From Deltaproteobacteria bacterium (lineage in GTDB: Bacteria; Desulfobacterota; Desulfobacteria; Desulfobacterales; GCA-2748835), in contig PDTL01000026.1 of NCBI GenBank assembly GCA_002748835.1, positions 18,281 through 82,280 on the forward strand: 64,000 nucleotides of DNA. The letters run 5' to 3'. Within the stretch, counting starts at the first letter, position 1. The number at the start of each line of letters is the position of its first letter. Made by a program: the position numbers and the translations under genes. Below, piece by piece: positions 43,111 to 46,100 of the stretch. The notes below the pieces were generated by a model. That model made no database searches and was not told the DNA's origin. It saw only the letters and a list, made by a program, of their open reading frames with translations.

Positions 43111-46100
43111 ATGTTGGAAACCTTATACGATTTTTTTGCCAAACCGATTGATCCGAAAAAATACGCCGGTGTGCAGATTGCACTGGCATCCTCAGAGCAG
43201 ATCCGGACCTGGTCCCATGGTGAGATTACCAAGCCTGAAACCATCAATTACCGGACGTTCAAGCCGGAACGCGATGGTCTGTTCTGCGCAAAGATATTCG
43301 GTCCCACAAAGGACTATGAGTGTAACTGCGGTAAGTATAAGCGTATGAAACACCGCGGTGTCGTGTGTGAAAAATGCGGTGTGGAGGTGATTCAGTCAAA
43401 GGTGCGGCGCGAAAGGCTGGCACATATAGAACTGGCTTCTCCGGTTTCCCACATCTGGTTTTTGAAGAGTCTTCCAAGCAAGATTGGCAACCTTCTCGAC
43501 CTTACCCTGAAGAATCTCGAACGGGTGCTCTATTTTGACAGTTATATTGTCATGGATCCAAAAGAAACCGGGCTGTCAAAATATCAGCTGCTGTCAGATG
43601 AAAAATATCACGATGCCCTGGAACTCTATGGCCCCACCTTCACTGCGGGTATTGGCGCCGAAGCCATCCAGGTACTTCTTGAAGAGCTGGATCTGGAAGC
43701 CATCTACGTGGAGCTCCGGGAAGAGCTTCAGAAAACCAATTCCACGGCAAAACGTCAGAAGCTGGCAAAACGCCTGAAGATCGTTGACGCCTTCAGAAAT
43801 TCGCCGGTGGATCCGGTCTGGATGATTATGAGCACGGTCCCGGTACTGCCGCCGGATCTTCGGCCCCTGGTACCGCTGGAAGGCGGCCGTTTTGCCACAT
43901 CTGACCTCAACGACCTCTACCGCCGGGTGATTAACCGGAACAACCGTCTGAAACGGTTGGTCGACCTGAAAGCCCCGGATATCATTGTCCGCAACGAAAA
44001 ACGGATGCTCCAGGAAGCCGTGGATGTGCTCTTTGACAATGGCCGCCATGGCCGGGTGGTGACGGGTACCAACAAGCGGCCGCTCAAGTCGCTGAGTGAC
44101 TCTCTGAAAGGCAAGCAGGGGCGTTTCCGGCAGAATCTCCTTGGTAAACGTGTGGATTATTCCGGTCGTACCGTTATTACCGTCGGTCCGAATTTGCGCC
44201 TTCATCAGTGCGGGATTCCGAAAAAAATGGCCCTTGAGCTGTTCAAACCGTTCATCTACCATAATCTGGAGCAGAACGGGTTTGTCTCCACAGTAAAAAG
44301 CGCCAAGAAAATGGTCGAGCGGGAAACCCCCGAGGTCTGGGATGCCTTGGATCAGGTGGTACGCGAATATCCGGTGCTTCTGAACCGTGCGCCGACCCTT
44401 CACCGGCTGGGGATTCAGGCGTTTGAACCGCTCTTGATCGAGGGAAAGGCGATCCAGCTGCATCCCCTGGTCTGTACGGCATTTAACGCGGACTTTGACG
44501 GTGACCAGATGGCGGTCCATCTGCCCCTTTCCATTGAGGCTCAGATCGAAGCCCGGGTGCTCATGCTGGCCAGTAACAATATCCTGTCACCGGCCAATGG
44601 CCAGCCAATTATTGTACCGACACAGGATATCGTTCTTGGCATTTACTACATGACCCGGTCACTGGACACACCGGAACCGGAACGCCGCCGGTTTTCCAGC
44701 TGTGCCGAGGCCCGTATCGCGTTTGACGCCAATGAAGTTTCCCTGCACAGTCAGGTCTATGTCCGTATCGAGGGTGAGCTGGTGGAAACCACCATCGGCC
44801 GCATTCTGCTGTGGGAGATCATTCCCTCTGAGACCCTCTCCAATTTCGAGCATATCACGGTCGATACCCGTGCGGATGCGGAACAGGTGTATGCGGACCT
44901 TAAAAAGGGGATGAGCTTCAAATCGGCTGTCGAAAAATACGCTGTGTCTGATGACAAGGCGATGGCCGGCGCCATCGGCTGGCTGAAAAAGAATGAACTC
45001 CGCGCCGTGTTCGGTTTCAGTGAAATGGATGCGGAGGCCCTGCTGGCTATTGCCCCCAACCGACTGAGTTCGATCCTGAAAATCAGGGGAAAATATCATA
45101 TTTTCCGGGTGGTTGAGACAAGAAATGAGATCCCGTTCAAACTCGTTAATCAGGTGATGGACAAGGGTGCGCTTCGTAAGCTGGTTGACTATGCCTATCG
45201 TGAACTCGGCCCGAAATCCACGGTGATCCTGGCCGACCGCCTGAAAGATCTCGGTTACCTGTATTCGACCCGGGGCGGTTTGTCCATTTGTATTGATGAT
45301 ATGATCATTCCGGAAACAAAATGGGATATTGTCGCATCTGCCCGTCAGAAGGTGTCTGAAATCGGTCGCCAGTATGTGGAAGGCCTGATTACCCAGGGGG
45401 AAAAATACAACAAGGTGATCGATATCTGGGCCAAGTCAACAGATGACATTGCCACTGAAATGATGAAGGGGATGGAAAATCCGCCGATGCTTAACGAAGC
45501 CGATGTCGACGCGGACCGGCCGGTTCAGCTCCGGGATTCCATCAACGCGATTTTTATGATGGCAGACTCTGGGGCCAGGGGAAGTAAGGACCAGATGCGT
45601 CAGCTGGCCGGGATGCGCGGCTTGATGGCCAAACCTTCTGGTGAGATTATCGAAGAGCCGATTACCGCCAACTTCCGTGAAGGACTCACGGTTCTCCAGT
45701 ATTTCGTCTCCACCCACGGGGCCCGTAAAGGACTGGCAGATACGGCGCTCAAGACCGCCAACTCCGGTTACCTGACCCGCCGTCTTGCCGATGTTGCCCA
45801 GGATTGTGTGGTATCGGAGCAGGACTGCGGCACCACCCTGGGCATCGAGGTGGAAGCGCTGACCGAGGGCGGGGAAGTGATTCAGCAGCTTGGAGAACGG
45901 GTGCTCGGCCGGTATACACTGGAAACCGTATATGACCCGTTTACCGATGAGCCGATCATTCTTCCCAATGTGGAAATTGACGAAAAAAACCTGGCAAAGA
46001 TCGAAGAATCCGGTATCACCAGCCTTCGGATTCGGTCGGTGTTGACGTGTAATGCAAAAGTGGGTGTCTGCGCCCGCTGCTACGGCCGGGACCTGGCGCA

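Follow-up and report, generated by a model that had tools for sequence, protein, structure and literature searches.

Introduction

Parvulin domains (PF00639, PF13616 and PF13145) are found in PrsA, PpiC, SurA and PpiD, which are secreted or envelope chaperones. The parvulins Pin1 and Ess1 act in trans on the tail of RNA polymerase II as active isomerases. Core RNA polymerase subunits, into which lineage-specific domains have been inserted, are among the most conserved proteins.

A 2024 survey located lineage-specific insertions in the β′ subunit at seven places, most of them HABAS domains and the rest BEAN or sLC, and inferred that insertion tapered off after early evolution (PMC11515920). In a term search of the text of that survey, the words parvulin, rotamase, isomerase, PPIase and Desulfo were absent (PMC11515920). 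The cryo-EM paper on Synechocystis RNA polymerase locates the division of cyanobacterial β′ in a loop at the surface (PMC10120043). In cyanobacteria, the Si3 domain is found around the rim helix, and exclusion of GreA and DksA has been proposed for it (PMC10802570); it touches the rim helices, and the cyanobacteria with this huge domain are without Gre and DksA (PMC10802570, PMC10120043). Among the papers listed in searches of open-access full text, none describing a parvulin domain within RpoC was found, which leaves its absence from print unproven.

The window, the whole stretch of 64,000 nucleotides analysed here, contains an rpoC gene with an insert of this kind.

Results

The insert lies where cyanobacterial β′ is divided

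The gene and the features that delimit the insert are as follows.

43075..47541, plus strand: rpoC (RNA polymerase β′ subunit), ORF of 1,488 amino acids, TIGR02386 equivalog at 1747.4 bits
44812..44814, plus strand: Trp580, in the flank before the insert; W in 88/88 insert-bearing and 5/5 insert-lost rows of the RpoC tree
44827..45129, plus strand: insert, residues 585-685 (101 residues), from the alignment to E. coli K-12 RpoC
44839..45126, plus strand: predicted parvulin-fold domain, about residues 589-684
45130..45153, plus strand: IPFKLVNQ, residues 686-693, first conserved block after the insert, pairing with E. coli L587 onward

TIGR02386 covers residues 33-1469, so β′ is otherwise normal; its start is probably M13 (43111), because homologues mostly align from residue 14. 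The insert follows the conserved block LLWEIIP (residues 578-584). In the alignment, only K585-G586 of E. coli stand opposite it, with P584 paired to P584 before and I686 to L587 after, and two alignments of the window RpoC to PDB RNA polymerases both break at this position. The match to the rpoC1 model TIGR02387 ends at residue 592 and that to the rpoC2 model TIGR02388 starts at 691 (model position 3), which places the insert where cyanobacterial β′ is cut in two. Downstream, 62 residues separate the insertion site from the segment aligned to E. coli 649-703, which we take to be the rim helices; K714, D721 and D725 stand at the positions of E. coli K615, D622 and Y626, presumably ppGpp site 1.

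The coordinates 44827..45129 given in the preliminary description are correct for residues 585-685 of this ORF, and its estimate of about 100 extra residues against about two in E. coli agrees with the alignment. The site also appears to lie ahead of the rim helices, as had been proposed, if E. coli 649-703 is taken as their range. The histidines named there as His581 and His663 are present, but in the numbering of the ORF they are His593 and His675; the earlier count probably began at M13.

Elsewhere in the window, five tRNA genes (Thr, Tyr, Gly, Thr and Trp; 33355-35383) stand before the ribosomal protein and rpoBC genes. Two long ORFs lie on the minus strand: one of 990 amino acids (8505-11477), which partly resembles subtilisin-type proteases but stays under the cut-off of the mycosin model, and a CheA-like one of 1,107 amino acids (25864-29187), which exceeds the 670-position CheA model and scores below the equivalog cut-off.

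Profiles and structure prediction point to a parvulin

PF00639 matched at 23.9 bits in the whole RpoC and at 29.4 bits in the excised segment, above the curated cut-off of 21.7, and a six-frame search of the source genome returned it at the insert with 29.1 bits (E 3.3e-6). Among 73 insert segments, namely the window and 72 of 79 named-genome loci (L021, L035, L043, L063, L079, L080 and L082 were left out), Rotamase_2, Rotamase (PF00639) and Rotamase_3 matched 70, 67 and 64, respectively, at E 0.01. The closest solved chains by profile were PrsA PPIase domains. The RPOC_hybrid profile matched the window RpoC only at residues 1257-1317.

The fold of the insert was predicted as parvulin, with the matches listed being parvulin-type proteins, and an insert carrying neither of the dual histidines was still predicted to be parvulin-like. 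HABAS or other non-parvulin folds were not noticed among the matches listed (50 for each of two inserts), beyond which others are possible. The profile search and structure prediction proposed in the preliminary description returned a Rotamase family above its cut-off and a predicted fold of the parvulin type. The element order that it had read from the letters was recovered as well: HITV (593-596), DAEQVYADLKKG (601-612), FKSAVEKYAVS (615-625), IGWL (634-637) and YHIFRV (674-679). Judged from sequence, the insert is a parvulin/PpiC-type domain built into β′. Many of the best 120 of 231 related protein clusters already carry precomputed Rotamase labels, and so the architecture is already in databases.

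The catalytic tetrad is degenerate and two pocket positions are conserved

Positions in the insert that correspond to catalytic and pocket residues of parvulins are listed below.

44851..44853, plus strand: His593, equivalent of the first dual His; H in 146/182 unique inserts
44947..44949, plus strand: Ser625, catalytic C/D position; C or D in 10/182 inserts and 6/20 stand-alone parvulins
44986..45012, plus strand: KKNELRAVF, residues 638-646, predicted helix with pocket positions 642 and 646; insert consensus RKDEFKRIF
45082..45084, plus strand: Ile670, catalytic T/S position; S or T in 68/182 inserts versus 20/20 stand-alone parvulins
45097..45099, plus strand: His675, equivalent of the second dual His; H in 154/182 inserts

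A flank pattern applied to 121 proteins and 153 locus frames (the frames include insert-less rows and fragments) extracted 211 inserts, of which 182 are unique; these 182 are related to one another rather than independent samples. The pattern missed the basal rows L095 and L149, although L092, the same gene as L149, was included. The 20 stand-alone parvulins are 23 loci minus L098, L099 and L101.

The catalytic tetrad of parvulins is C/D-H-H-T/S, and in NmPin the substitutions D42A and S82A left 0.7 and 3.5 percent of activity (PMC4922055). In the window, the equivalent residues are H593, S625, I670 and H675, with both outer residues of the tetrad replaced. All four are found in 6 of the 182 unique inserts, the tetrad being incomplete in the window and in 176/182; both dual histidines are kept in 135/182 and neither in 17/182. 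Since C. difficile PrsA2 D232A had raised activity (PMC6288519), loss of the C/D position alone is no proof of inactivity. Replacement of PrsA2 Y273 by Ala cost about 98 percent of activity (PMC6288519); residue 672, its equivalent by spacing, is G, D, E, N, Q or K in 177/182 inserts. On these residue grounds, an isomerase function is unlikely, and the earlier reading of the insert as an isomerase or folding module is not supported.

Other positions are strongly conserved. Position 642 is F, M or L in 177/182 inserts and position 646 is F or Y in 176/182, which may reflect the fold alone, while E641 is present in 176/182 inserts versus 8/20 stand-alone parvulins.

Among the stand-alone parvulins of the phylum, one class (L096, L097, L100, L103, L104, L106, L109 and L111) has RQIVV at the first catalytic His, with Gln in place of that residue, and YHIF at the second.

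The insert is concentrated in one order

The survey of RpoC across the phylum that had been suggested found the insert concentrated in a single order. In a draw of 297 genomes from the phylum, it lay in an RpoC-length frame in 12/12 genomes of the same order (source included), and the remaining matches listed sit in frames of fewer than 700 residues. A draw of 146 genomes from the order gave 126 matches at 1e-12, of which two (G391 and G422) are stand-alone parvulins, leaving 124 genomes with the insert; in two of these, contig ends cut the insert, which in G347 is divided between two ends and in G419 is matched no further than position 36 of the 128 in the profile. Searched with whole RpoC, the other 22 order genomes comprised 9 with an insert-less RpoC, 3 with fragments elsewhere in RpoC and 10 without a match. 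The insert is thus present in 124 of 133 readable order genomes, 9 readable genomes being without it.

Whole RpoC was also searched against a further draw of 99 genomes from the phylum, of which 3 belong to the order. Among the matches listed, none outside the order spans the insert; the out-of-order matches listed stop at query residue 570-593 or start at 684-691. The insert accordingly appears restricted to one order within the phylum in these searches, a pattern that fits a single gain. Peptide patterns that include the flank ILLWEIIP, run over named genomes, found 79 loci, mostly under Desulfobacterales, Desulfobacteraceae and Deltaproteobacteria titles and including Desulfocicer vacuolatum DSM 3385 and Desulfamplus magnetovallimortis.

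One RpoC from outside the order (L178, genome G080) has extra residues of its own. These lie upstream of the insert site, before the TTVGRILLWEIMP block, and represent a separate insertion; a second insertion at the identical site, suspected because its match to the window RpoC has a gap, was rejected for this reason.

A probable single gain and probable losses

An RpoC tree of 124 rows, computed with the insert columns dropped and rooted on 27 out-of-order rows, needs four insert changes, at least three of which are forced by starred branches, and such counts alone cannot separate gain from loss. The tree was built with FastTree only and leaves out L082. Its 88 insert-bearing rows include near-identical ones, where one genome appears under both a named and an unnamed record. 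It can be read as one gain after the insert-less basal rows L128, L129, L130 and L132, followed by losses in L127, in L125 and in L123/L124/L126. A linker remnant bears on one of these: L127 (G406) reads PRDNI-KRPEIPF, and in its relative G072 the domain is preceded by DNI and followed by KRPEIPF. In the genus of L127, 6/7 species retain the insert. From the tree and the linker remnants, we infer that the insert was gained once, close to the base of the order, and lost three times. Because some species have lost it, the insert looks like an accessory rather than an essential part of the enzyme.

The position of Trp580 is W in none of the 4 basal and none of the 27 outgroup rows of this tree. 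A role as an insert-specific contact is weakened by the W also present in the insert-less E. coli and G080 proteins, and the invariance of W580 among the pattern-extracted inserts is a product of the extraction pattern itself.

A tree of the domain itself compares 21 inserts with 19 stand-alone parvulins from the phylum, and the inserts group separately in a single clade (support 99/98). The nearest stand-alone rows, L145 and L146, belong to two basal genomes of the order that have no insert, with weak support (88/73). Long branches mark this tree, which was built on 95 columns with 21 of the 27 inserts chosen for it and, among the 20 stand-alone parvulins, without L004. It suggests, without proving, that a stand-alone domain of the PpiC type was captured within the lineage, and the donor was possibly a chaperone of that type from the lineage itself.

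Nei-Gojobori counts gave an insert dN/dS below 1 in 21/21 listed close pairs (20 distinct, as two compare identical sequences), the highest value being 0.914 in the closest pair. The ratio was above that of the remaining RpoC in 20/21 listed pairs. The insert looks to be under constraint that is weaker than that on the RpoC core.

Gre, DksA and omega are retained

A GreA/B domain was found in 93/96 genomes of the order (79/81 of those with the insert) and a DksA/TraR-type zinc finger in at least 93/96 (at least 78/81 of those with the insert). Matches of the rpoZ type (omega) were present in 55/58 order genomes and in 48/50 of those with the insert. Factors of the Gre and DksA types and omega being widespread, the insert has not replaced them, and the idea that it stands in for omega was rejected. 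Exclusion of Gre and DksA, as in cyanobacteria, is not favoured on the same counts; the effect on factor access raised in the preliminary description does not fit in this form, although the insert may still modulate factors of these types.

In the source genome, outside the window, about 360 bases separate a greA-type from an rpoZ-type match (G000:C7:66643-66852 and 67212-67370). Close greA/rpoZ pairs recur in many of the order genomes listed, indicating a conserved greA-rpoZ neighbourhood.

Discussion

We consider it likely, with a probability of roughly 0.55, that the predicted parvulin-fold insert at the cyanobacterial split point is a catalytically degenerate docking module for a segment of a partner protein. 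A stand-alone PpiC-type domain would have been captured into a surface loop of β′ near the base of the order. Its surface would keep the hydrophobic peptide groove and would hold a proline-containing or hydrophobic partner segment close to RNA polymerase, and its isomerase activity would be weak or absent. The tetrad is degenerate, yet the pocket is kept at position 642 in 177/182 inserts and at position 646 in 176/182, which argues for docking. Against it, both dual histidines persist in 135/182 inserts, more than pure docking needs, and stand-alone parvulins themselves have C or D at the tetrad position in only 6/20; the insert also evolves faster than the remaining RpoC in 20/21 listed pairs, and the three losses mark it as dispensable. 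More speculatively, a chaperone-derived, peptide-reading pseudo-isomerase grafted into RNA polymerase might capture the proline-containing tail of a lineage-specific factor, forming a private Desulfobacterales recruitment arm and a cis counterpart of Pin1/Ess1.

Dispensability would also suit a passenger that a permissive surface loop tolerates and that need do no more than fold and spare RNA polymerase. The same loop is cut in cyanobacteria, and the three losses and the faster evolution than the core (20/21 listed pairs) are in keeping with this; yet the insert is kept in 124/133 readable order genomes and E641 in 176/182 inserts versus 8/20 stand-alone parvulins, and we regard a passenger as unlikely. 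Much the same holds, at slightly lower odds, for a steric or allosteric gate on the outer side of the secondary channel that, with no peptide ligand involved, modulates pausing, backtracking or the access of Gre/DksA. The position of the insert, 62 residues before the equivalent of E. coli 649-703, invites comparison with Si3, located around the rim helix and proposed to exclude GreA and DksA (PMC10802570), but cyanobacteria are without such factors, whereas GreA/B occurs in 93/96 and the DksA-type finger in at least 93/96 order genomes.

Less probable again is an active prolyl isomerase carried on RNA polymerase, whose target would be the folding of the polymerase itself, a transcription factor or proteins as they emerge. 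The predicted fold, the two histidines in 135/182 inserts and the PrsA PPIase domains as closest solved relatives by profile speak for activity. However, the complete C/D-H-H-T/S tetrad is restricted to 6/182 inserts and NmPin D42A and S82A are nearly inactive (PMC4922055), the equivalent of PrsA2 Y273 is G, D, E, N, Q or K in 177/182 (PMC6288519), and 17/182 have neither His, one of these still being predicted as parvulin-like; isomerase activity is thus quite doubtful from sequence. An assembly error, misread frame or chance profile match might be suspected in a draft assembly that is 84.95 percent complete, but can be dismissed with near certainty: the same insert recurs in many separate assemblies, such as those of D. 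vacuolatum DSM 3385 and D. magnetovallimortis, and in 124 order genomes.

Among highly conserved core subunits, β′ here carries a predicted enzyme-derived fold unlike HABAS, BEAN or sLC, at a seemingly different site, and this insert by the tree was gained inside one order and lost several times. The natural insert-less sisters provide controls with which the function of an RNA polymerase insertion becomes directly testable, as does the conversion of a folding-enzyme domain into a transcription docking module.

In its profile match and predicted fold, the insert resembles the parvulin domains of PrsA, PpiC, SurA and PpiD, but it sits inside a core RNA polymerase subunit and its tetrad is incomplete in the window and in most other inserts. 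Like HABAS, BEAN, sLC, E. coli SI3/β′i6 and cyanobacterial Si3, it is a clade-restricted domain between conserved β′ blocks; it differs from the HABAS, BEAN and sLC insertions in its predicted parvulin fold, its seemingly different site and a gain inferred inside one order. A blocker of the Si3 type would lead one to expect genomes without Gre and DksA, whereas nearly all insert-bearing genomes of the order keep each type. Cyanobacterial rpoC1/rpoC2 involve the same loop, but there the chain is cut, while in the window RpoC a domain is added and the chain is whole. Pin1 and Ess1 likewise exemplify a parvulin working with RNA polymerase; the insert is instead part of the subunit itself and degenerate in its tetrad.
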